A DNA stretch of 64,000 bases from assembly GCA_963169045.1 (NCBI GenBank), contig CAUJDF010000041.1, positions 66,872-130,871 of the forward strand. Reading direction: 5' to 3'. The stretch is from Myxococcota bacterium. GTDB lineage: Bacteria > Myxococcota_A > Bradymonadia > UBA7976 > UBA1532. The position numbers and the translations under genes are program-made. A model generated the notes under the pieces. That model was not told the DNA's origin, made no database searches, and saw nothing but the letters and a program-made list of their open reading frames with translations. Positions 15,163 through 31,480 of this stretch are shown piece by piece; within the stretch, counting starts at the first letter, position 1, and each line of letters starts with the position of its first letter.

Positions 15163-18100
15163 ATGCGCACGCGTGCGACTCGAGGGGGGGCGAGCCCGCT
15201 CCTGGTCTGTCTTCTGTGGGCCGTCGCCGGGACGGCCTTCGTGGCCGCCGAAGCCGCGGCCCAGTGTCAGCCTGATCGCGAGCGCTGCGACGCACTGGAC
15301 AACGACTGCGACGGCCAGATCGACGAGGGCAACCCCGACGGCGGCGACGAGTGCAACACCGGTCAGGACGGAATCTGCGCCGCCGGCACGCTGACGTGCG
15401 TGTTCGGCGACCTCGTCTGCCAGCGTGACGTCGCGCCCCAGGCCGAGCGCTGCGACGGCGTCGACCAGAACTGCGACGGCCGGATCGACGAGCAGAACCC
15501 CGGCGGGTTCCGGCCGTGCGAGACCGGCGAGGCCGGCGCCTGCAACGAGGGCGCGACGCGCTGCGTCGACGCCGAGATCGTGTGTGTCCGCGTCGAAGAT
15601 CCCGGCGACGAGCGCTGCGACCGCGTGGACAACGACTGCGACGGCATCGCCGACGAAGGCAACCCGGAGGGCGGGTCCGCCTGCAGCACCGGCGGCACGG
15701 GCGTCTGCAGCGAGGGCCGGACGACGTGCGTCCGCGGCAACCTCGCCTGTGTCCCCGTGCAGGCCGCCGGCGACGAGCTCTGCGACAACCTCGACAACGA
15801 CTGCGACGGTCGCATGGACGAGGGCGATCCGCAGGGCGGCGCCGGCTGCGACACCGGCGGCGTCGGGCGTTGCGGCCAGGGGCGGACGCGCTGCGACGGC
15901 GGCCGGCTCGCCTGCGACGCGGTGAACGAGCCCGCCGCCGAGGTCTGCGACAACCACGACAACGACTGCGACGGCCGCGTCGACGAAGAGGTGCCCGGCC
16001 TCGGCGAGGTGTGCGAGGGCGGCGCCTGCGGCGAGGGCCGCACCGTCTGCAGCTTCGGGCAGATGGTCTGCCGCGGCAGCGGGCGCGGCCGTCCGGAGAC
16101 GTGCAACGGCCAGGACGACGACTGCGACGGCCTGGCGGACGAGGAGTCGCCGGGCGTGGGCCTCGAGTGCCAGACGGGCCAGCCCGGCGAGTGCGCCGTC
16201 GGCGCGACGGCCTGCCGCGACGGCGCGATCGCGTGCGTGACGCGCGCCGACCCGGCGGACGAGGACTGCAACGCGCTCGACGACGACTGCGACGGCCGCA
16301 TCGACGAGGGCGATCCCGGGGTCGGCGAGGACTGCAACAGCGGCGGCGCCGGCGTGTGCGAGGCGGGCCGGTCGGTCTGCCGCAACGGGCTCGTGGTCTG
16401 TCGGGCCGTCGTCGAGCCCTCCGCCGAGACCTGCGACGGCGAGGACGACGACTGCGACGGCCGCGCCGACGAGGGCAACCCGGGCGGCGACGTGGCCTGC
16501 GACAGCGGGCTGCAGGGCGAGTGCCGCGCCGGCGTGCTCGCGTGCCGCGGCGCGATGCTCGAGTGCGTCGCCCAGCACCAGCCCCAGGGCGAGATCTGCG
16601 ACGCGCTCGACAACGACTGCGACGGGAACGCCGACGAGGGCGATCCGGGCGGCGGCGGCCGATGCGCGACGGGCCTCGCCGGGATTTGCGGCCAGGGCAT
16701 CCTGCGCTGCACCGGGGGCGCGGTGACCTGCGTCCCCCGCGACGCCGGCCAGGACGAGGTCTGCGACGGCGCCGACAACGACTGCGACGGTCGCGTCGAC
16801 GAGTCCGATCCCCGCGACGGCGAGGCCTGCGAGACGGGTCGCCCCGGCGTCTGCGCCATCGGCGAGCAGGCCTGCGTGGACGGCGATCTCGTCTGCACCC
16901 TGTCCGTGCAGCCCTCGGGGGAGCGCTGCAACGGCCGGGACGACGACTGCGACGGCGAGCCCGACGACAACGACCCGGAGGGTGGCGTCGTCTGCGAGAT
17001 CCCCGGCGCCCGCGGCGCGTGCGCCCGAGGCGTCACCCGCTGCGTGGACGCCGCGGTGGTCTGCGCCGACGTCCCCGAGCCGATGGCCGAGCGCTGCGAT
17101 GCGATCGACAACGACTGCGACGGCCGCACGGACGAGGATCTGCCGGGCATCGGCGAGCCTTGCGACACGGGGCTCGAGGGCGTGTGCGCGGTCGGCGTCC
17201 AGGGCTGCGAGGCCGGCACGCCCACCTGCGCGGCGGAGGTCCAGGCCGGCGACGAGCAGTGCGACGGCGAGGACAACGACTGCGATGGCCAGACCGACGA
17301 GGGCCAGCTCGGCGGCGCCCGGTGCGCCACCGGCCGTCCCGGCCTCTGCGCCGGCGGCGTGACGTCGTGCCGCGCCGGCAGCCTCTCCTGCCTCGCCGAC
17401 GAGCAGCCCGGCGCCGAGACCTGTGACGAGGTCGACGAGGACTGTGACGGCGTCGTCGACGAACAGCAGCGCAACGCCTGCGGATTCTGCGGGCGCACCG
17501 TCGCCGAGACGTGCAATGGCCGAGACGACGACTGCAACGGCGTGGCGGACGACGGCGAGATCTGCGGCGAGGGCCTGGTGTGCGCCGTCGGCCGCTGCGT
17601 GGAGCCCTGCCAGGGCAACGAGTGCCCGACCGCCGGCCTGGTCTGCGTCCAGGGCGGTTGCGTCGAACCCTGCCATGCGCTGGTCTGTCCCGCCGGCTTC
17701 GGGTGTGAGAACGGCGTGTGCGTCGATCCATGCCGGTCCGTGAGCTGCGGTCCCGGGACGGTCTGCCGCGCCGGCCAGTGTGTCGACGACACGTGTTACG
17801 TCGCCGGTTGCGCCGAGGGCGAGCGGTGTGTGGGCGGCCGCTGCGAGGCCGATCCCTGCGCCGCCACCGAGTGTGAGCCCGACGAGGTGTGTCGCGAAGG
17901 CGAGTGCGTGGCGAGCTGCGGCCCGGTGAGCTGCAACCTCGACCAGATGTGCGTCGACGGCGAGTGCGTCGCCGATCCGTGCTTCGGCGTGGCGTGCCGC
18001 GAGGGCCGCGTGTGCGTCCCCGGACCCGAAGGGCCGGTGTGCGAGCCCGACGCCTGCGTCAACGTGGAGTGCGGCCCCGGACAGCGCTGCTGGCGCGGGA

Positions 18101-18534
18101 CGTGCGGCGACGACCCCTGTCGGTTGCTGGTCTGCCCCCACGGAGAGGTCTGCGTCGCGCAGTACGACCAGGGCCGCTGCGCGCCCGACTGGCTGCGGGA
18201 TCCGGGCGCCGGAGACGGCGGCGTGGACGCCGGTCCGCCCGCGGACGCCGCGGTCGACGGCGGCGCGGCGGACATGGGCGCAGGGGGGGCCGATGGGGCG
18301 GTCGACGGAGGCCCGGCCCACGACATGGACATTCCCGATGCCAGACCCCTCGACATGAGCCGTCCAACCGTAGACACTGGTGAAACCGACACCGAACCGG
18401 GCGCGGGGGAGACCGGCTCCGGCGGTGGCGGCGGGGGTTGCAGTTGCCAGACTGGTGTTCCGAGTGAAGGCGCGGCGCTCGCCGCGATCCTGCTCGGATT
18501 GTCCGGCCTCCGTCGTCGTCGTCGCCGGCACTGA
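15163..18534 (+). CDS. Secreted MopE-type repeat protein with MYXO-CTERM-like anchor
   Basis: An 1123-residue surface protein. After a signal peptide (about 1-35, ending AAEAAAQC) come 15 repeats of roughly 50 residues at about 42-803. Each starts CDxxDNDCDGxxDEGxP and adds four more cysteines (CxTG, GxC, C, C). This is the MopE-type putative metal-binding motif, named after a Methylococcus copper-binding surface protein. Next is an EGF-like Cys-rich region to about 1010 (VCPAGFGCENGVC, VSCGPGTVCRAGQC), a Gly/Asp linker, and a tail with GGCSCQTG, a hydrophobic span and RRRRRRH. That tail fits MYXO-CTERM, a sorting signal that leads to surface anchoring. No enzyme domain is seen. It lacks the toroid found in the next two genes. 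Confidence 0.88.
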   Translation: MRTRATRGGASPLLVCLLWAVAGTAFVAAEAAAQCQPDRERCDALDNDCDGQIDEGNPDGGDECNTGQDGICAAGTLTCVFGDLVCQRDVAPQAERCDGVDQNCDGRIDEQNPGGFRPCETGEAGACNEGATRCVDAEIVCVRVEDPGDERCDRVDNDCDGIADEGNPEGGSACSTGGTGVCSEGRTTCVRGNLACVPVQAAGDELCDNLDNDCDGRMDEGDPQGGAGCDTGGVGRCGQGRTRCDGGRLACDAVNEPAAEVCDNHDNDCDGRVDEEVPGLGEVCEGGACGEGRTVCSFGQMVCRGSGRGRPETCNGQDDDCDGLADEESPGVGLECQTGQPGECAVGATACRDGAIACVTRADPADEDCNALDDDCDGRIDEGDPGVGEDCNSGGAGVCEAGRSVCRNGLVVCRAVVEPSAETCDGEDDDCDGRADEGNPGGDVACDSGLQGECRAGVLACRGAMLECVAQHQPQGEICDALDNDCDGNADEGDPGGGGRCATGLAGICGQGILRCTGGAVTCVPRDAGQDEVCDGADNDCDGRVDESDPRDGEACETGRPGVCAIGEQACVDGDLVCTLSVQPSGERCNGRDDDCDGEPDDNDPEGGVVCEIPGARGACARGVTRCVDAAVVCADVPEPMAERCDAIDNDCDGRTDEDLPGIGEPCDTGLEGVCAVGVQGCEAGTPTCAAEVQAGDEQCDGEDNDCDGQTDEGQLGGARCATGRPGLCAGGVTSCRAGSLSCLADEQPGAETCDEVDEDCDGVVDEQQRNACGFCGRTVAETCNGRDDDCNGVADDGEICGEGLVCAVGRCVEPCQGNECPTAGLVCVQGGCVEPCHALVCPAGFGCENGVCVDPCRSVSCGPGTVCRAGQCVDDTCYVAGCAEGERCVGGRCEADPCAATECEPDEVCREGECVASCGPVSCNLDQMCVDGECVADPCFGVACREGRVCVPGPEGPVCEPDACVNVECGPGQRCWRGTCGDDPCRLLVCPHGEVCVAQYDQGRCAPDWLRDPGAGDGGVDAGPPADAAVDGGAADMGAGGADGAVDGGPAHDMDIPDARPLDMSRPTVDTGETDTEPGAGETGSGGGGGGCSCQTGVPSEGAALAAILLGLSGLRRRRRRH
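15286..17571 (+). repeat. MopE-type repeat array, 15 units
   Basis: Fifteen in-frame degenerate units of about 150 nt encode the CDxxDNDCDG repeats. Most have six cysteines. The fifth unit ends with an atypical FGQMVCR segment and the eleventh has an IPG insertion in place of the usual TG; the same two oddities recur at the same positions in the next gene. Confidence 0.9.
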
Positions 18535-18591
18535 GGAGCGCGCACAGTAAGGTCGCTCGGCCGCCCGTGACCGAACCGCTACGGAGGCCTC

Positions 18592-21500
18592 ATGCGATCC
18601 GACGGACGACTGCGAACGTCCGCTGTCCTGCTCCTCGTCCTGTTCACCGCGACGCCGGCCGCGGCGTTCCGCACCCCGTTCGGCGATCGGGTCAATCAAT
18701 CGATCGAACGCGGCCTGCAATACCTGCGCGGGCAGGAGGCCAACGGCAACATCGGCGGCTGGGCCACGGGCCTCGCCGTGCTGGCCTTCCTCGAGAAGCG
18801 GGCGAGCGCCGACTGGCAGGCGCCCCACCTCGGCTACCGCAACTCGTCGGCGAACGACCAGGCGCTCATGCGCCGCGCCGCGCGATACATGATCACGCTC
18901 GACGGATCGCTGCGGAACCCGAACGCGACGCCGTACAGCTACGGCACCGGCGCCTCGCTGATGGCGCTGTCGCTGTACCGCATCACCGGGGGTCCCAACG
19001 ACGTCGGCGCCGCCGTCGGCGTCGAACAGGCGATCACCAACGGTGCCCAGGCCCTCCGGCGCACCCAGGGCAACGTCGGGCACAACCGCGGCGGCTGGAA
19101 CTACGACAACCCCAGCAGCGACGGCGACATGTCGACCACGCAGTTCGCGATGGCCGGCCTGTCGGCGGCCTCGGCGGTCTGGCCGCCCGCCGACGACACG
19201 CTGCCCAACGCGGTGGGTTTCTGCGGCAACGCGCAGCGGCCCGACGGCGGCAGCACCTACCGCGGCAACGGCGGCGGCTGGAACGGCCTCCCGCCGTGGG
19301 GCTCGAGCCACTCGATGACCGCGTCGGGCCTGTGGACGTGGCGGCTCGCCGGCGTGGCGCAGCACGACGGCCGTGTGCAGAACACCATCCGCTGGCTGCG
19401 CGACCGCTGGGCGTATCAGAACGGCGTCTCGGGCGCCTACTACTACTACATGTGGGCCGCGGCGAAGGGCCTCGAGGTGTCCGTCGCCAACGGACAGGCG
19501 GGCGTCTTCGAGAACAACGTCGGCGGCCACCGCAACATGGCGGCGCTCGGCTACCCCGAGGAGCCGCGCAACTGGTACTCGGATCTGGCGTACACGCTCG
19601 TGACCACGCAGGGCGGCGCCGGCCAGTGGTCGGCGAACTGGTCCACGGTGGCCGACACCTCCTTCGCGCTGCTGGTGCTCGAGCGTTCGCTCGGCGGTGT
19701 CTGCGGCGATGCATTCGGCGACCAGGACGGCATCTGTCAGGGCGACGACAACTGTCCGAACGTGCCGAACCCCGACCAGGCCGACGGCGACCGCGATCAC
19801 ATCGGCGACGCCTGCGACAACTGCCCCAACGCGCCGAACCCGGATCAGGCCGACGGCGACGGCGACGGCGTCGGGGACGCGTGCGACCCCTACCAGTGCC
19901 GCCCCACCGGACGGGAGATCTGCGACGGCCGCGACAATGACTGCGACCGGCAGATCGACGAGGAGGATCCGAACGCGGGCAGCGCGTGCGACAGCGGCCA
20001 GCCCGGCATCTGCCGCGACGGCGTCCGCCAGTGCATCAACGGCGGCCTCGTGTGCGTCCGCCTGCGCAACCCGCAGGCCGAGGTCTGCGACAGCGTCGAC
20101 AACAACTGCAACGGCGCCATCGACGAAGGGAACCCGGACGGCGGCGCCGCCTGCAACACCGGGCGGCGGGGCGTGTGCGCCGACGGCGTCGAGATGTGTC
20201 GCGCCGGCCGCGTGGTCTGCGAGCAGCGCGACCAGGCCCGCGACGAGCTGTGCGACGGCCGCGACGACGACTGCGACGGCAACGTCGACGAGGGCGGGCC
20301 CGGCGGCGGCCAGCAGTGCGAGACGGGGCAGATCGGCCTGTGCGCCCGCGGCACCAGCCAGTGCTTCAACGGGCGCCTGCGCTGCGTGCGCGACAACGAC
20401 CCGGGCATCGAGCTGTGCAACGGCGCCGACGACGACTGCGACGGTCGCACCGACGAGGGCGATCCCGGCGCCGGCCAGCAGTGCGATCCGGGGCCGGGCG
20501 CGCAGTGCCGCAACGGCCGCACGGTGTGTCAGGGCGGCCAGGTGCAGTGCGTCGCCGCCGCGCAGCCCTCCCCCGAGGTCTGCAACGGCGCCGACGACGA
20601 CTGCGATGGCCGGGTGGACGAGCAGGTGCCCGACGCAGGCAACGCCTGCCAGACGGGCAACCCCGGCGTCTGCGGCGATGGCACGCTGCGCTGCGCCTTC
20701 GGACAGATGGTCTGCCGCTCCGATGCGCGCGGCTCGCCCGAGATCTGCGACGGCGTCGACAACGACTGCGACGGCCAGATCGACGACGGCGTCCCGGGCG
20801 TCGGCGCCGACTGCCAGACGGGCGGGCTCGGCGCCTGCGCCGCCGGCAGTCTGGCCTGCGTGGACGGCGGCATCGTCTGCGTCCCTCGCGGCGAGGCCGT
20901 CGACGAGATCTGCAACGGCGAGGACGACGACTGCGACGGCGAGATCGACGAGGGCAACCCCGAGGGCGACCTCGCCTGCGACACCGGCAACCTCGGTGTC
21001 TGCGCCGACGGCATCACGCTCTGCCGCAACGGCGGCGTGCAGTGCCGGCAGCAGCACGAGGCCGCGCCCGAGATCTGCAACGGCCTCGACGACAACTGCG
21101 ACGGCGTCGTGGACGAGAACAACCCGGGCGGGGACGCCGCGTGCAACGCCGGCGGCCTCGGTCGGTGCGCCGACGGCGTGCTGCGCTGCGCCGACGGCGA
21201 GGTGCTCTGCGAGGCCCGCTTCGTGGCCCAGCCGGAGGTCTGCGACGGCCAGGACAACGACTGCGACGGCGACGCCGACGAGGAGAACCCGGGCGGCGGC
21301 GTCGACTGCGACACGGGCCGGCGCGGCGCCTGCGCGGCGGGCGTCCTACAGTGCGCCGACGGCGACCTCCGCTGCGTCGCGCGCAACGACGCCGTCGCCG
21401 AGTTCTGCGACGGCAGCGACAACGACTGCGACGGGCAGGTCGACGAGGACGATCCCGACGTCGGCCAGCGGTGCGAGACCGGAGAGCCCGGCCAGTGCAT

Positions 21501-23226
21501 CGCCGGCGTCCAGCGCTGCATCGACGGCGTGCTGATCTGCGAGGCGGCCAACGAGCCCCGCGAGGAGGAGTGCAACGGCCTCGACGACGACTGCGACGGC
21601 ACCGCCGACGAAGGCGAGCCCGGCGGCGGCCTCGCGTGCGACATCCCGGGCCGCCGCGGCGCCTGCGCGGTGGGCCGGACGTCCTGCGTCGGCGGCATCG
21701 TCGTGTGCGGCGAGGGGCCCGACCCCCAGGTCGAGGTGTGCGACGCGCTCGACAACGACTGCGACGGCACCGCCGACGAGGGCGATCCGGGCGGCGGCGC
21801 CGCGTGCGACTCGGGCCTGCTCGGCGCCTGCGCGTCGGGTCGCATGGCCTGCGACGGCGGCGCGCTGATCTGCGTGGTCATCGTCCAGCCGGTCGCGGAG
21901 ATCTGCGACGGCCTCGACAACGACTGCAACGGCGAGATCGACGACGGCGAGCCCGAGGGCGACGCGGCGTGCGCCACCGGCGAGCCCGGTCGCTGCGCCG
22001 AGGGCCGCCGCTCCTGCCTCGCCGGCGCGGCGGGCTGCGTCGCGCTCGAGGAGCCCGAAGACGAGGTGTGCGACCTGGTCGACAACGACTGCGATGGCGC
22101 CATCGACGAGGGTCTGCGCAACGCCTGCGGGCGCTGCGGCGAGCTGCCGGTCGAGATCTGCAACGACCACGACGACGACTGCGACGGCGCCGTCGACGAA
22201 GGGGAGCTGTGCGACGACGGGCAGGTCTGCGGCCACGGGCGCTGCGCCGACCCCTGCGCCGGCAACGAGTGCACCGGCGACGACGAGGTCTGTGTCGACG
22301 GCGTCTGCCTCGACCGCTGCGAGGCCCTGGTCTGCCCGGACGGCTGGGGCTGCCGCGACGGCCGGTGCCTCGACCCGTGCATGGGCGTGCAGTGCGGCGC
22401 GGGCCTCGTCTGCCGCGCGGGTCGCTGCGTCGGCGACAACTGCTACGAGGCGGGCTGCCCCGAGGGCGAACGCTGCGTCCAGGGGCAGTGCGAGGCCGAT
22501 CCCTGCGCCGCGGTCGACTGCTTGCCGGGTGAGTTCTGCCGCGGCGGCGCGTGCATCCCCAGCTGCGCGCCCGTGAGCTGCGCCCTCGACCAGGCGTGCG
22601 TCGACGGCCGCTGCGAGGACGACGCCTGCTTCGGTGTCGAGTGCGAGGGCGGCGCCGAGTGCGTCGTCATCGACGGCCTGGCGGTCTGCGAGCGCAATCA
22701 GTGCGCCGGCGTGCAGTGCGGCGTCGGCCGCGCGTGCGTCCGCGGCAACTGCATGGACGACGAGTGCGCCCACATCCGCTGCCCCGACGGCGAGATCTGC
22801 ACCTTCGAGAACGGCCGCGCCGACTGCGTCGGTCACTGGGTCGAGCGGCCCGCCGGCGACGGCGGGGTGCCCGACGGCGACGCGGGTCCCGACGCCGGGG
22901 CCGGCGGCGGCGCGGGCGGTGGTGCCGGCGGCGGCGCCGGTGGCGGTGGCGGCGGCGCGGGCGGTGGCGGTGGCGCCGGCGGCGGCGCAGGCGGCGCCGG
23001 TGGGGCCGGCGGGACCGGCGGCGAGGGCCTCGACGCCGGCGCGGACGCCTTCCCCGTCCCGCCGGGCGCCGACGCCGGCGGCCCCCCTGCCAACGATCCG
23101 GAGCCGGTCACCGATGGCTGCGCGTGCGACGTCTCGGGTGGCCCCGGCGCCGCCCTGTGGCTCGGCCTCCTGGCGCTGGCGGCCCCGCTCCGCCGCCGTC
23201 GCGACCGGAACGCCGACCGCTCCTGA
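18592..23226 (+). CDS. Giant secreted protein: alpha/alpha-toroid, TSP3, MopE repeats, MYXO-CTERM-like anchor
   Basis: A 1544-residue protein. Signal peptide about 1-25. Residues 30-375 look like a prenyltransferase/squalene-cyclase-type alpha/alpha toroid: [62 protein letters not shown] and [14 protein letters not shown]. The catalytic DxDD of triterpene cyclases was not seen, so an enzymatic role is doubtful. Then two thrombospondin type 3 calcium repeats ([21 protein letters not shown]), 15 MopE-type repeats (about 444-1207), an EGF-like Cys-rich region, a long Gly/Ala linker and a tail with CACD, a hydrophobic span and RRRRDR. ATG 18592 follows an ACGGAGG site. It is flanked by two relatives in the same orientation. 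Confidence 0.85.
19921..22211 (+). repeat. MopE-type repeat array, 15 units
   Basis: Fifteen in-frame units of the same type as in the preceding gene. Unit 5 again carries FGQMVCR and unit 11 again carries an IPG segment, so units appear to correspond one to one with those of the upstream array. Confidence 0.88.
22900..23027 (+). repeat. Gly/Ala low-complexity linker tract
   Basis: A GGC/GGT/GCC-rich stretch inside the giant gene at 18592 codes for about 40 residues of nearly pure Gly with Ala spacers. It joins the Cys-rich region to the C-terminal anchor and is probably a flexible surface spacer. Such tracts change length easily between strains. Confidence 0.85.
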
Positions 23227-23300
23227 ACCTGCGCGACATCCGCTGCCCCGGGCGCGCCGTGTCGCGCGGCCGGCTTGTTGCGAGAAAGGCTCGTCCCCTC

Positions 23301-26300
23301 ATGCGAACGCCATCGTTCCCTCGGCGCCTCCTCCTGCTGGCCGCGGTGCTGGGCACGAGCCCGGCGGCGGCGCAGCTCTCCCCTTTCCGGCAGCGCGTCA
23401 ACCAGTCGATCGATCGTGGCCTCGCCTACCTGCGCGGCGTCGAGAACGGCGGCGGCAGTATCGGCGGCCCGGCGACCGGGCTCGCGGCGCTGACCTTCCT
23501 CGAGAAGCGCGAAGCGCCGGTGCCCAACGCTCCGCCGATCGGCTACCGCGGGATGCTGGCCGCCGACCAGCAGCTGCTGCAGCGCGCCGTGCGCTACATG
23601 ATCAACAACGACGCGGGGTTGCGGCCGGGAGGCACCGCCTACGTCTACCAGACCGGCGGCTCGCTGATGGCCCTCGGCGTCTACCTCGCCACCGGCGGGC
23701 CCGACGACGTCGGGGCGGCGCGCGGCGCCCAGGCGGCCCTGCAGGCCGGCGTCGACGCGCTGCTGCGCCAGCAGAACGGGATGGGCGGCTGGAACTACAC
23801 CGTCGACGAGGGCGACAACGACCTCTCGACCACCCAGTTCGCGCTCGCCGGCCTCTCGGCGGCGTCGGCGGTCGTCAACGTCGACCGCAACGCCATCCGG
23901 CGCGCCGCCAACAGCATCGACGGACACCACGAGGGCGGCGGCTGCTACGCCTACCGCACGAGCGGCTGGGCCGGCTGCAGCAGCAGCATGACCGCGTCGT
24001 CCCTGTGGGTCGGCCGCATCGCCGAGCGCGCCGTGGACCACAACCAGATCCAGGGCACCCTGCGCTGGCTCCGCGCCAACTGGCAGTATGACGGCCACAT
24101 CGCCGCGCCCCAGGCCGGCTGGGGTCCCAACAGCTACTACTACTACCTGTGGGCGGCCGCGAAGGGTCTCGAGGTCAGCGAGAGCAACCGCGCCGACATC
24201 GTGCGCGCCCGCGACATCGGCGGCGCGCGCGTCCCCGCCAACGACGGTTTCCCCGAAGAGGACCGCTCCTGGTACTACGACATCGCGTGGAGCCTGACGC
24301 AGCGCCAGAACGCCGACGGCTCGTGGGGCATCGCCGGCAATCGCGGCTGCTGGGGCGCCGGCAACAGCGGGGACGGCATCTCCTGCAACGCCTTCGCCAT
24401 CCTCGTGCTCGAGCGCTCCCTCGGCGGCGCCTGCGTCGACCGCGACGGCGACGGCGTGGAGCGCCGCGCCGGCGCCGACCGTTGCGAGCCCGACAACTGC
24501 CCCGACGTCCCGAACGTCGACCAGGCCGACGCGGACGGCGACGGCGTCGGCGACGCCTGCGACAACTGCCCCGACGATCCCAACGCGGACCAGGCGGACG
24601 GCGACGGCGACGGCCGCGGCGACGTCTGCGCCTGCCGGGCGAGCCCCGAAGTCTGCGACGGCGCCGACAACGACTGCGACGGCGTCGCCGACGAGGGCGA
24701 TCCGGGCGCCGGCGCCGAGTGCCAGAGCGGCGCCCCCGGGCTCTGCGCCCGCGGCGCCACCGCCTGCGTCGGCGGCCGCCTCGTGTGCAACCCGCGGAAC
24801 GATCCGCGGGCCGAGATCTGCGACGGGCAGGACGACGACTGCGATGGCCAGGTCGACGAGAACAACCCCCAGGGCGGCCAGGACTGCGAGGTCGGCCGCC
24901 CCGGCATCTGCAACCGCGGCGTGACCCTGTGCGCCGACGGCGCGCTGCAGTGCCGCCCGATCAACGACCCGCGCGCCGAGGTCTGCGACGGGCAGGACGA
25001 CGACTGCGACGGCCAGATCGACGAGGGCCAGCCCCAGGCGGGCGAGCCCTGCGCGGCCGACGGCATCGGCGTCTGCGGCGTCGGCAGCACGCTGTGCGCC
25101 GACGGCCAGGTCCTCTGCCAGCCGATCGCCGGGCCGGGCGACGAGATCTGCAACGGGCAGGACGACGACTGTGACGGCCAGACGGACGAGGGCGATCCGG
25201 GCGGTGGCGTGGCCTGCGCGGCGGGCGCCCTCGGGGAGTGCGGCCAGGGCACGACCGCCTGCCGCGAGGGCGAGGTGCGCTGCATCCCGGACGTCGAGGG
25301 CGGCTCGCCCGAGATCTGTGACGCCCGCGACAACGACTGCGACGGCTTCGCCGACGAGGATGTGCCGGGCGCCGGCGAGCCCTGCGCCGCCGATGCCCTG
25401 GGCGCCTGCGCCGACGGCCGCCGCGCTTGCGTCGGGGGCGAGATGGTCTGCCAGCCCGAGGTGCAGGTCAGCGACGAGGTCTGCGATGGCCTCGACAACG
25501 ACTGCGACGGCACCCCCGACGATGACGTGGCCGGCGCCGGCGACCGCTGCGCCTCCGGCCAGCCCGGCGCGTGCCGCGTCGGGCTTCGCGTCTGCGCCGA
25601 CGGGCGATTCTCGTGCCAGCCCGAGGCCGAGCCGACGCAGGAGGTCTGCAACGCGCGGGACGACGATTGCGACGGTCACGTCGACGAGGGCCTGCGCAAC
25701 GCGTGCGGGACGTGCGGCGAAGTCCCCGTCGAGACGTGCAACGGCGCCGACGACGACTGCGACGGCGAGGTCGACGACGGCGCCGAGTGTCCCGACGGCC
25801 AGAGCTGCCGCTGGGGCCGCTGCGCCGACGCCTGCCGCAACAACGAGTGCTCCGGCGCCGAGGTCTGCGTGCAGGGGGTCTGCGCCGAGCCCTGCGACCT
25901 GCTCGAGTGCGGCGACGGCCACGTCTGCCGCGACGGGCAGTGCGTCGATCCCTGCGCCGCGGTGGACTGCACGCCGGGCGAGGCCTGTGTCGGTGGCCGC
26001 TGCGTCGCGAACAATTGCTACGAGGCCGGCTGTTTGGACGGAGAGCGCTGCGTCGACTTCATCTGCGAGCCCGATCCGTGCCACGACCTGTTCTGCAACG
26101 AGGGCGAGTTCTGCCGCGACGGGCGGTGCGTGTCGAGCTGCGCCACGGTGAGCTGCCCGCTCGGCGAGTCGTGCCGCGACGGCGTCTGCGTGACGGATCC
26201 GTGCGAGGAGCTGGGCTGCCCCGATGGCCAGATCTGCCGCGCGGGCGAGTGCGCCGCCGACATCTGCGCGGGCGTGCAGTGCGCGACGGGGCAGCGGTGC

Positions 26301-26687: not shown

Positions 26688-27730
26688 CCGCAGGCGCCCG
26701 CCTCTCCCTGCTCCTCGGTCTCCTCGCCCTCGCGGGCTGCGACGGCGCCTCTGCGGATCCCGACGCCGGGGCGCCCGTCCCTGGCGACCTGCGACCGCTC
26801 GACGGCGCGCTCGGGCCGGTCGTCCTCGGCGTCTTCGGGACGGCGGCCGACGACGTCTGGTTCGTCGGCGGACTGCTGGCGCCCGGCGCCCGCGGCCGCT
26901 TCATCGCCCACTTCGACGGCCGCGAGGTGCGCGCCGAGGCGGTCCCCGACGGGCCGGCCCTGTGGTGGGTCTTCGGCGACGGGGCCGGCCGCGTCCGGGC
27001 CGCTGGCGAGGAAGGGCAGATCTTGGTACGAGAGGCCGATGTCTGGCGTGAGGAACAGACCGGCCTCGATGAGAAGGCGGTGCTCTGGGGTCTCTGGGGC
27101 GCGGCCCCCGACGACCTGTGGGCGGTGGGCGGCTCGGTGCGCCGCGGCGGCCCAAAGGGCGTCGTGCTGCGCTCCGCCGGCGACGGCGCGTGGCGGCGCG
27201 TCGACGATCCGGCGCTCCCGGACGACCTCAACCTCTACAAGGTCTGGGGCCGCGCGCCGGGCGACGTGCACCTGGTCGGCGAGGGCGGCGTGACGGTGCG
27301 CTGGGACGGCGAGACCTTCACGCGCCATGTTGCGCCCGTGCCCGACCTGCTCTTCACCGTCCACGGTCGCGCCGCCGGCCCGGTGCTGGCGGTCGGCGGC
27401 CTCGACGAGGGCCGCGTCGTGCGCTGGACGGGCGAGGCGTGGGTCGACGACGGCCTGACGGGCGCGGCGCCGCTCAACGGCGTGTTCGTCCACGCCGATG
27501 GCACCGCCCGCGCCGTCGGCGCGACGGGCGCCGTCTTCGATCGCGACCGGGACGGCACGTGGCGCGCCGTCCGCGCGGAGCGTGCCCTCGCGCCCTTCAC
27601 CCTGCACGCCGTCTGGGGCGCGACGCCCGGCGAGACGTGGGCCGTCGGCGGCGACCTGAACGCCGGCCGCGGCGGCCTCATCGCCACTGCGCGCCGTCCC
27701 CTCCCTCCGGTCGTCGTGGAGACCCCGTGA
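26684..27730 (+). CDS. Lipoprotein with propeller-like WG repeats
   Basis: A 348-residue predicted lipoprotein: [10 protein letters not shown] places the lipid cysteine at C19. The mature part has about six repeats of the type VWGxxPxDVWxVGxxG ([57 protein letters not shown]) with a strand-rich 'xxxRWDGExFT' part between. This looks like a beta-propeller; such proteins are common and poorly understood in Myxococcota. The GTG start overlaps the preceding surface-protein stop, and its own stop overlaps plsB, both GTGA. Binding to neighbouring surface proteins is possible but not shown. Confidence 0.75.
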
Positions 27731-30687
27731 GCGCCCTGGTCCCGTCCCGCTTCCGCAGCGCCATGCTCGAAGCCCGCACCGGCTTCCTGGGCTGGCTCGG
27801 CCGGCGCCTGTTCGACCACATCGAGCCCGATCCCGAGGCCGCCGCCCGCCTGCGCGCCCTGGCCGAGCAGGGCCACATCGTCTACGTCATGCGGACGCGG
27901 TCGCTGCTCGACTACCTGTTCTTCAACTCCCTCTTCCTGAAGTTCGCGCTGCCGCTGGCCCGCTTCGCCAACGGCGTGAACATGATGGCCTTCCGCGGGG
28001 CCGGCGAGTGGCTGCGCGACGTCTGGGGCCGCATCCTCGGTCGCACGCCGCCGGACCCCGCCCCGCAGGACCAGCTCGAGCGCGCGGTGCGCGCCGGCGA
28101 CGCGGCGCTGCTCTTCATGAAGGTGCGGCAGCTGACGGCCGAGCGGGAGTCGAACGGCGGCTTCATCGAGCGGCTCGTCGCCCTCCAGCGCCGCATCGAC
28201 AAGCCGATCCTGCTCGTCCCGCAGGTCATCGTGTGGCCGCGCAAGCCGCCGTCCACGCGCCGGACCTGGTTCGACATCCTCTTCGGCGAGCAGGAGGCCT
28301 CGGGCCGCCTGCGCAAGCTCGGCCACTTCATCCGCCACCGGCGATCGGCCAGCGTGCAGCTCGGCGAGCCCGTCGACCTGCAGAAGGTCATCGCCGAGCA
28401 CGAGGGCTGGAGCGACGTCCGGGTGGCGCGCCTGGTGCGCCGCGTCGTCTACATCCACCTCGCCCACGAGGCGATGGCCGTGCGCGGCCCGAGCGTCAAG
28501 CCGGGGCGCGACATCCGGCGCGAGGTGCTCGAGGGCGCCCGCTTTCGCCGGGCCCTGAAGAGTGAAGCGGCTTCGATCGGCGTCCCCTTCTCGCAGGCGA
28601 TGGACCAGTCGAAGGCCTACCTGCGCGAGATCTCCGCCTCGATGGTCTTCGAGGTCGTGCTCGGCTTCTCGCGCTTCCTCGACTTCCTGTTCAACCGCAT
28701 CTACGAGGGCGTCGAGGTCGACCTCGAGGGCATGCGGCGCGTCAAGGAGGCGGCGAAGCTCTCCCGACGCGCGCCGCTCATCCTGCTCCCGTCGCACAAG
28801 AGCCACATCGACTACCTCGTCATCTCGTGGGTCTTCCTGCGCAACGAGTTCATCCCTCCGCACATCGCGGCGGGCGCGAACCTCTCGTTCTTCCCCGTCG
28901 GCAGCCTGTTCCGGCACTCGGGTGCGTTCTTCCTACGCCGCAGCTTCAAGGGCATGCCCCTCTACTCCCTGGTCTTCAAGCACTACCTCTGGAAGCTGGT
29001 GCGCGAGGGCTATCCCGTCGAGTTCTATCCCGAGGGCGGCCGCAGCCGGACCGGGAAGCTGCTGCCGCCGAAGCTCGGCATGCTCTCGATGCTCATGGAG
29101 GGCGTGCGTCAGGGCGAGTTCAAGGACCTGCAGTTCGTCCCCATCAACATCAGCTACGAGCGCGTGCTCGAGACGGGCGCGTACAAGCGGGAGCTGCAGG
29201 GCGGCGAGAAGAAGAGCGAGGGCGTGACCGACGTGGTCAAGGCCGGCAAGGTGCTCGCCCACCGCTACGGCCGCGTCTACGTCAGCTTCGAAGAGCCCGT
29301 GCGCCTGACGGACTGGCTCCAGCGCTTCCAGGTCGGCGATCCGATGCAGATCGGCGAGGCCGCCTGGCGCGCCGCCATCAAGCGCCTCGGCTACGACCTC
29401 ATGCGCCGCATCCAGGAGGCCACCGTCGTCACCCCGAGCGCGCTCGTGTCGACGGTGCTGCTCAGCGACGACCGGCGCGGCATGTCCTCGGCGCGGCTGC
29501 GCGAGCTTGCGGGCTACCTGGTCGAGGTGCTGACGCACCGCGGCGCCCGCATGTCGAAGTCGGTGGAGCACAACCTGGTCGCGCGCGCCGACCACCTGGC
29601 GCAGGCGTCGGCGCAGGGCTGGCGCGAGGGCGCCCGGGCCCGCGGCGAGGTGCTGCGGCCGCTGCTCGACGAGGCGTTGTACCTGCTGCAGAAGGGCAAG
29701 CTGCTCGAGCGCGTCGACCGGGGCGGCGAGAGCCTCTACACCGTGCCCGAGAAGGCGCGCCTCGAGCTCGACTACTACCGCAACGCGGTGCTCGGCATCC
29801 TCGCCCCCGACGCGTTCGTCGCCACCGCGCTGCGCGCCACGGACCACCCGCTCACCCGCGAGCAGCTCGCGAAGGACGTGCGCCGCCTGAGCTATTGGTT
29901 CCGGCTCGAGTTCGTCTACAAGGCCGGCACCACCTTCGACGAGAACCTGACCGAGACGCTGGACCGCCTCATCGCCGAGGGGCTGGTGTCGGTCGGCGCC
30001 GACGGTCGCTACGTGGCCCAGGCGCCGCGGACGCTCGACTTCCTGCGCGGGACGCTGCTGCACCTCGTCGAGGGCTACTGGGTCGCCGCCGACGCGCTGC
30101 GCGGGCTGGCGCAGGGACCGATGGAGGTCAAGCGCTGGCTGGCCCATGCGCGCGAGCACGGCGAGCGCGAGTTCCTCGAGGGCGACGTGCGGCGCGCCGA
30201 GGCGATGTCTTCTGCGGTGCTGCGCAACGCGCTCGAGCTGTTCCGCGAGGAGGGCCTCGTCGTCTTCGAGCGGCGCTCTGCGGGGAAGAAGTCGGTGGAG
30301 TTCTGCGCGTTGGCCGGCGACACGCGCCTCGAAGCGGTCGCCGCGCGGCGCGACGACCTCGGCCTGTTCCTCGTGACGCACCGGGAGGACCCAATCCCGC
30401 GCCCCGCGGACGACCCGGCGCCGACGCCCGCGCCGGAGGCGGCGGTCGACCCGCCCGCCACCGCTCCGCCCGGCGCGCCGGCGGCTTCGTCCGCGGTCGC
30501 CGTGCCCGCGCCTGGGCCGGCCGCCGCGACCCCCGCAGCCACGCCCGCGCCGGCAGCGGCGGCCCCGCCCTCCACCCCGCCCGCGCCCGCCGTGCCCGCG
30601 CCCGAGTCGGCGCCGCCCGCGCCTGGCGCCGAGATCGCCGCCCACCTGGACGACGAGCAAGACCGCGCCGGGGATCGCGACGCCTGA
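27727..30687 (+). CDS. plsB: Glycerol-3-phosphate acyltransferase, PlsB type
   Basis: A 986-residue enzyme that acylates sn-glycerol-3-phosphate at position 1, the first step of phospholipid synthesis. The acyltransferase motifs are clear: HKSHID with H357 and D362, FRHSGAFFLRRSF, FYPEGGRSRTGK at about 433-444, and FVPINISYE. The N-terminal 300 residues and the C-terminal extension correspond to the long PlsB form rather than PlsY. The last 100 residues are a Pro/Ala-rich tail that looks disordered and is not part of the enzyme. The GTG start overlaps the upstream lipoprotein (GTGA). PlsB is a membrane-associated enzyme using acyl-ACP or acyl-CoA. Confidence 0.93.
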   Translation: MSALVPSRFRSAMLEARTGFLGWLGRRLFDHIEPDPEAAARLRALAEQGHIVYVMRTRSLLDYLFFNSLFLKFALPLARFANGVNMMAFRGAGEWLRDVWGRILGRTPPDPAPQDQLERAVRAGDAALLFMKVRQLTAERESNGGFIERLVALQRRIDKPILLVPQVIVWPRKPPSTRRTWFDILFGEQEASGRLRKLGHFIRHRRSASVQLGEPVDLQKVIAEHEGWSDVRVARLVRRVVYIHLAHEAMAVRGPSVKPGRDIRREVLEGARFRRALKSEAASIGVPFSQAMDQSKAYLREISASMVFEVVLGFSRFLDFLFNRIYEGVEVDLEGMRRVKEAAKLSRRAPLILLPSHKSHIDYLVISWVFLRNEFIPPHIAAGANLSFFPVGSLFRHSGAFFLRRSFKGMPLYSLVFKHYLWKLVREGYPVEFYPEGGRSRTGKLLPPKLGMLSMLMEGVRQGEFKDLQFVPINISYERVLETGAYKRELQGGEKKSEGVTDVVKAGKVLAHRYGRVYVSFEEPVRLTDWLQRFQVGDPMQIGEAAWRAAIKRLGYDLMRRIQEATVVTPSALVSTVLLSDDRRGMSSARLRELAGYLVEVLTHRGARMSKSVEHNLVARADHLAQASAQGWREGARARGEVLRPLLDEALYLLQKGKLLERVDRGGESLYTVPEKARLELDYYRNAVLGILAPDAFVATALRATDHPLTREQLAKDVRRLSYWFRLEFVYKAGTTFDENLTETLDRLIAEGLVSVGADGRYVAQAPRTLDFLRGTLLHLVEGYWVAADALRGLAQGPMEVKRWLAHAREHGEREFLEGDVRRAEAMSSAVLRNALELFREEGLVVFERRSAGKKSVEFCALAGDTRLEAVAARRDDLGLFLVTHREDPIPRPADDPAPTPAPEAAVDPPATAPPGAPAASSAVAVPAPGPAAATPAATPAPAAAAPPSTPPAPAVPAPESAPPAPGAEIAAHLDDEQDRAGDRDA

Positions 30688-30767
30688 GCACCGACGCGCC
30701 GGCGGGACCCGTGTCGGTCCGGCACCCGACCGAAGGGCGGCGACCGTCGCGCGGCCACGAGCGACGA

Positions 30768-30955
30768 CCGCCCTCCGGTGGTCGCGCGAGGTCCAGGCCT
30801 CGCCGCACCACCGCCCCCCGGTGGTCACGCGAGGTCCAGACCTCGCCGCACCACCGCCCCCCGGTCGTCGCGCGAGGTCCAGACCTCGTCGCACCACCGC
30901 CCCCCGGTGGTCACGCGAGGTCCAGACCTCGCCGCACCACCGCCCCCCGGTGGTC
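30768..30955. repeat. 43-bp tandem repeat array of alternating hairpins (4 units plus a partial)
   Basis: Units start at 30768, 30811, 30854 and 30897, with a partial fifth from 30940. Each unit holds CGAGGTC-CA-GACCTCG (7-bp stem, 2-nt loop). The unit junctions form ACCACCG-CCCCC-CGGTGGT (7-bp stem, 5-nt loop). So two different hairpins alternate along the array. The first unit reads CCAGGCCTCG instead of CCAGACCTCG, a change that would keep pairing as G-U in RNA of the plus strand. The array lies between convergent plsB and rimI and may end transcription from both sides or bind a protein. It is not a CRISPR array: there are no unique spacers. Confidence 0.9.
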
Positions 30956-30961
30956 GGTGAT

Positions 30962-31480
30962 TCAGGGGCGCATCCGGCCGGCAACGGCCCATCGCGGACC
31001 GCCGAAGGCCGCCCGCGCACCGAGCCGAGGCGCCGCCCGCGCCATCAGCACCGCGTCCTCGCCGTCGGCGTAATAGCGGCGGCGGCGCCCCACATCGGCG
31101 AAGCCCGTCGCGGCATAGAGTGAGCGCGCGGCCGCGTTGTCCGCGCGCACCTCGAGGAGCACCCGCCGCGCCCCCGCCCGCGCCGCCGCGATGAGCAGCG
31201 CCCGCACCAGCCACCGCCCGTGCCCGGCCCGCCGGCACGCGCCGCTCACCGCCACGTTCTGCAGGTGCGCCTCGTCGAGCACCCGCCACCACACGAGGAA
31301 GCCGACGACGCGCCGCCGCCCGTCCTCGAGCACGCACGGCCGCGACTGCGCCACCGACAGCTCGTGCGCGAACGCTTCCCGGCTCCACGACGGGGGCGGC
31401 GTCGCCGCGTCGATCGCCACGAGCGCGTCGAGGTCGGCTTCGGCCATGCGCCGCAGCCGCCGAACGACGCGGCCCTTCAC
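30962..31480 (-). CDS. rimI: Ribosomal-protein-alanine N-acetyltransferase
   Basis: A 172-residue GNAT acetyltransferase. It has SWSREAFAHELSV in the acceptor region, EAHLQNVAVSGACRRAGHG with the R/Q-x-x-G-x-G/A acetyl-CoA loop, and ARRVLLEVRADNAAARSLY followed by GFADVGRRRRYY, the block that marks RimI among GNAT proteins. The start GTG 31480 overlaps the engB stop (GTGA). RimI acetylates the N-terminal alanine of ribosomal protein S18 in E. coli; other N-terminal substrates are possible. The last 20 residues extend beyond the usual domain end. Confidence 0.88.
   Translation of the reverse strand: MKGRVVRRLRRMAEADLDALVAIDAATPPPSWSREAFAHELSVAQSRPCVLEDGRRRVVGFLVWWRVLDEAHLQNVAVSGACRRAGHGRWLVRALLIAAARAGARRVLLEVRADNAAARSLYAATGFADVGRRRRYYADGEDAVLMARAAPRLGARAAFGGPRWAVAGRMRP

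Follow-up and report, generated by a model that had tools for sequence, protein, structure and literature searches.

The gap between two convergent genes, plsB and a rimI-like gene, in the 64,000-nt stretch of myxococcotal DNA that we analysed (hereafter the window) contains a tandem array of a 43-bp unit in which two palindromes alternate. Several families of intergenic arrays in this genome have units of 40–43 bp, so the window array represents one of a number of small families with a common unit length, and its most novel aspect is this period, which is common to arrays of differing sequence. From the sequence features described below, we tentatively propose, at slightly less than even probability, that it is an amplified series of hairpins, lacking U-tracts and working in both directions, that would help to end, or to cap or protect, both the plsB and the rimI transcripts.

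The array occupies positions 30764–30954 (no strand assigned) and consists of four units of 43 bp followed by 19 nt of a fifth, i.e., 4.4 copies in an assembly that may have collapsed longer arrays. It is real, and the 43-bp repeat is well past chance: when the plsB-rimI gap is compared with itself at a shift of 43, 163 of 231 positions agree, against a best value of 117 at any lag of 10–119 in 1000 dinucleotide shuffles, and TRF called a period of 43 at 30767–30955 with 4.4 copies, 93% matches and 0 indels. With the domain matches of the two neighbours, these results confirmed the preliminary description of four full units and a partial one between convergent plsB and rimI. All units were read on the plus strand. 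Unit 0 (30764–30806), the most diverged among the full units, is followed by unit 1 (30807–30849), unit 2 (30850–30892), unit 3 (30893–30935), which has the same sequence as unit 1, and partial unit 4 (30936–30954), which amounts to one complete junction hairpin. A possible degenerate older unit lies in register with the array at 30721–30763 (plus strand), and the 86 nt from 30721, comprising this unit and unit 0, match the array at 62%. Position 21 of the unit is G in units 0 and 2 and A in units 1 and 3. This shared G and the identity of units 1 and 3 suggest that the array grew by duplication, perhaps by two units per step. Substitutions among units fall on the three codon phases in numbers of 4, 3 and 3, so no phase is favoured and the array does not look coding. 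A coding origin was rejected on this lack of bias and on a period that is not a multiple of 3, as had been said of it before.

The upstream gene, plsB (27727–30687, plus strand, start codon approximate, stop codon at 30685–30687), encodes a glycerol-3-phosphate acyltransferase with GPAT_C and Acyltransferase domains, whose best named relative is a Myxococcales bacterium protein (47% identical), a match that makes a myxococcotal host probable. Its convergent neighbour (30962–31447, minus strand, start codon approximate, stop codon at 30962–30964) encodes a GNAT acetyltransferase that fits RimI. The array begins 76 nt past the plsB stop codon and ends 7 nt short of the rimI stop codon on the opposite strand. 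Absence from close relatives had been named among the outcomes that would speak against the interpretation of the array, and in part this is what we found: it is missing at the orthologous junction in four same-family genomes (L048, L055, L052 and L053), where plsB and rimI are convergent yet abut or overlap. In three others (L049–L051) plsB faces another gene, likewise without a spacer. From their sequences, the proteins facing plsB are read as RimI in the former four genomes and as dihydroorotate dehydrogenase in the latter three. As no array occurs at the plsB junctions of relatives, this comparison indicates that it is an addition in this lineage.

Two palindromes alternate along the array. 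The junction hairpin, ACCACCG-CCCCC-CGGTGGT (7-bp stem, C5 loop; 30807–30825, no strand assigned), is exactly as previously claimed; it is perfect in three of its five occurrences (units 1, 3 and 4, starting at 30807, 30893 and 30936) and has a single stem mismatch in each of units 0 and 2 (starting at 30764 and 30850). The in-unit hairpin, GCGAGGTC-CA-GACCTCGC (30829–30846, no strand assigned, and again at 30786, 30872 and 30915), is present as described, with a stem of 8 bp and not 7 bp. As had been noted, its A-to-G variant in unit 0 does preserve G-U pairing in plus-strand RNA; in minus-strand RNA it gives an A-C mismatch. Two such stems per unit arise in only 0.055% of shuffled units. The plus-strand array RNA is predicted to fold at −122.8 kcal/mol, against a mean of −80.7 for dinucleotide shuffles (z = −9.7), an energy that is not unique in absolute terms, since about 10 of 639 windows across the G+C-rich 64-kb stretch fold as well or better (the genome has a G+C content of 73%). 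Because any repeat of a palindrome folds well anyway, we used a column-permutation control in which the columns of the unit are shuffled alike in all copies, so that the repeat is preserved. The array remained well below this control on both strands (z = −4.9 for plus and −3.2 for minus; 0 of 100 shuffles as low). A long nested stem spanning two units was also considered, and the pairing tested, which was possibly written one column off, was unsupported. Rfam gave no match above gathering score; its only hit, to an miRNA, was at chance level, scoring 24.7 where gathering is set at 100.

The array is not the single curiosity that it had seemed, being instead a member of a small dispersed family as well as of a wider set of arrays of near-equal period. 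A search of the genome with a covariance model built from its units retrieved three loci, ~77–82% alike: the window array, a two-unit array at C91:251903–252003, between convergent genes for a DUF4202 protein and a patatin-like protein, and a single unit at C38:191148–191208, whose flanking genes run in the same direction. The next matches (E of at least 0.06) appeared by eye to be ordinary sequence. At C91, an A-T pair of the in-unit stem has become T-A, and 89% of cells are paired, compared with 27–58% when the partner is slid. This covariation is modest support for the stem, as it amounts to one or two independent changes. The proposed search for other loci and relatives thus found diverged members at C91 and C38; the same model applied to 37 related genomes gave no member above chance level. 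A wider family in those relatives was considered and rejected, as the matches with E of 0.01–0.1 were at chance level, one (L035) lying in coding frame and the others being judged by eye. The junction hairpin pattern is found in the genome at the family loci and one other site only. A phage origin was among the candidates set aside; the 16-nt palindrome turned up a single time in each of 31 stretches of viral sequence. No similar DNA was found among plasmids, and a plasmid origin was rejected.

To survey intergenic arrays more widely, we compared every gap of 80 bp or more with itself at lags of 10–200 in 2.13 Mb of the 9.0-Mb genome (24%), with genes called by a home-made simple codon-score caller; the sample is not random because it was taken from contigs with matches. 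Ten arrays have periods not divisible by 3, namely 40, 41, 41, 43 (six arrays) and 164 bp. With one further array of period 42 (L200), ten arrays have periods of 40–43 bp, mostly with unrelated sequences. The codon-phase bias seen in clearly coding arrays is absent in these ten intergenic arrays, two of which have too few substitutions to reveal it. The L200 family has two additional matches, the L181 family two additional places and the 41-bp family one, ~68–82% alike. Some of the array families may share a distant common descent, with weak pairwise sequence scores. A literature search on 43-bp, helical-turn or minisatellite arrays found nothing close.

Several of these loci deserve individual description. 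The 42-bp array at L200:15305–15453 (G000:C44:555305–555453), in another convergent gap, is built like the window array from an unrelated sequence, with palindromes within the unit (GCAGGGTC-G-GACCCTGC) and at the junction (CCCCA...TGGGG). It has diverged matches on contigs C58 and C56. The arrays at L164:4496–4842 and L179:10583–10961 belong to one 41-bp family, with eight and nine units, 78% alike and both between genes of the same direction. Other 43-bp intergenic arrays, of differing sequence, are found at L181:10901–11121, L116:7965–8098, L157:7159–7300 and L212:1404–1496; at L157, degenerate in-register copies extend on both sides. At L169:16933–17329, a 1.08-kb convergent gap holds an array of 21-bp period together with a weak one of 40-bp period, whose unit is different.

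Five of the ten 40–43-bp arrays lie between convergent genes, against an expectation of 9–11% (p ~0.001–0.002), an enrichment computed on ten arrays only and tested after the data had been seen. Three of the five convergent arrays fold more stably, on either strand, than their column-shuffled controls: the window array, with the values above, the C91 array (z = −2.9 plus/−2.4 minus) and the L200 array (−3.5/−3.1); the remaining values are −1.6/−2.1 for L169 and −1.0/−0.5 for L157. Divergent and same-direction arrays have z values that are mostly positive or close to zero, with the exception of the same-direction 41-bp array L164 (−2.5/−1.9).

In the preferred reading, that the array serves the ends of both transcripts, a 43-bp unit of the small dispersed family would have been amplified by tandem duplication where the 3′ ends of the two genes meet, through a repeat-making process that would also yield arrays without hairpins. 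Nascent RNA from either gene, plsB or rimI, would then form a row of strong, U-tract-less hairpins, which might pause or release the RNA polymerase or block 3′ exonucleases, so that both transcripts would end within the gap, and copies in series would offset the weakness of each single hairpin. We count for this reading the hairpin excess on both strands, the closeness of the final hairpin to the rimI stop codon (7 nt), the share of 40–43-bp arrays found in convergent gaps, the paired change in the in-unit stem at C91, and the occurrence of the clearest two-strand hairpins in convergent arrays. A two-way transcription stop was already among the ideas offered in the preliminary description and is the best of them, with the two-strand excess in its favour and the lack of a T-run after the stems against it. 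Indeed, no T-run follows any stem, so the array does not qualify as a canonical intrinsic terminator. No terminator-like site was found at positions 30500–31200, and a separate scan found none at the locus either. Such terminators are rare in this genome: of the 74 convergent gaps that are 40 bp or longer, 4 contain a hairpin-plus-T site, and none of the five convergent array loci does; other kinds of transcript ends are therefore needed. Elsewhere in the genome, sequence just past stop codons shows slightly better folding than sequence inside genes, a weak effect (mean z ~−0.4). The rarity of T-run terminators and the folding after stop codons fit, without proving it, an important part for Rho or for U-tract-less hairpin ends. 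The weakness of this hairpin excess after stop codons counts against the transcript-end reading, as does the shortness of the sampled convergent gaps, 177 of 251 being under 40 bp. Also against it, plsB and rimI abut or overlap in relatives, so that no array is needed there.

The main rival is a neutral or selfish, REP-like minisatellite, whose 43-bp unit would spread, expand by slippage or unequal recombination and be tolerated in harmless gaps such as convergent ones, its hairpins aiding slippage without any function for the cell. We regard this as a serious contender, somewhat less probable than the preferred reading. It agrees with the absence of the array from the relatives' orthologous junction and from the 37 related genomes, with the pattern of units 1 and 3 being equal and units 0 and 2 different, as duplication steps predict, with the existence of arrays of equal period that have no hairpin excess, and with the finding that every family tested is present at two to four loci that are ~68–82% alike. 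However, a two-strand hairpin excess found mainly in convergent gaps is unexpected from neutral spread alone, as is a paired base kept through a double change between loci. Known bacterial minisatellites (VNTR, MIRU type) likewise consist of intergenic tandem units of tens of bp that expand and contract, but here each unit contains two palindromes, and unit length is near-constant genome-wide among differing sequences. A broader process, possible though doubtful, would be that intergenic tandem arrays arise in this lineage with their unit length held at ~40–43 bp, near four turns of the DNA helix, regardless of sequence, each family spreading to few loci and hairpins being kept in arrays between convergent genes.

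REP and BIME elements are short GC-rich intergenic palindromes, often at gene ends, between convergent genes and clustered in tandem (PMC3733652, PMC1525189). The window array resembles REP, BIME and REPIN elements as a set of extragenic palindromes at gene ends, since it lies between two stop codons, as does the C91 array, and by analogy it works like a BIME in some respects. It differs in that the covariance model finds its family at three loci only instead of in many copies, in that an alignment of its units has no conserved GTAG or CGTC tag flanking the stems, and in that all its units have one orientation. Moreover, a search for RAYT (Y1_Tnp, PF01797) gave no match in this 95% complete genome, while the control search was positive in five genomes, that of E. 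coli among them. We have not filed the array as REP/BIME because copy number, tag and RAYT all fail. It is improbable, in our estimate, that the palindromes act as a BIME-like binding site for gyrase, a nucleoid protein or some other factor, at a place where positive supercoils accumulate from convergent transcription. Tandem palindromic units between convergent genes are known for REP sequences (PMC1525189, PMC3733652), and with a period near four helical turns the units would face the same way; however, the other arrays of equal period do not share the unit sequence, which speaks against a single sequence-specific binder for the whole set. That a replication fork barrier or cruciform stalls replication between plsB and rimI is very improbable, as only the palindromes themselves speak for it, whereas the arrays lie on several contigs in differing gene contexts and show no link to origin or terminus.

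For the transcript-end reading, the closest known likeness is to I-shaped terminators, described in a review (PMC12288462): strong GC hairpins without a T-run near a stop codon in a high-G+C genome. According to that review, most mycobacterial genes rely on hairpins that lack a U-tail and lie at most 50 bp from the stop codon. The array lies within this distance on the rimI side (7 nt) and not on the plsB side (76 nt), and, as a putative terminator, it differs in having four to five copies of two hairpins in strict 43-bp tandem. The review also cites a study whose title states that the mycobacterial polymerase needs a U-tract, and whether U-tract-less hairpins terminate at all is disputed. Convergent arrays with several two-way hairpins would be natural test objects for how very G+C-rich bacteria end transcription without T-runs. 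The shared 40–43-bp period, if true of relatives and of the genome as a whole, would suggest a common generator or a physical constraint on unit length.

Further arrays were seen elsewhere. In the related genome G008, a 44-bp array lies between convergent genes (L228:17543–17624). Within the window itself, positions 15535–25800 contain long coding arrays of 165-bp units in which Cys, Asp and Gly codons are abundant.
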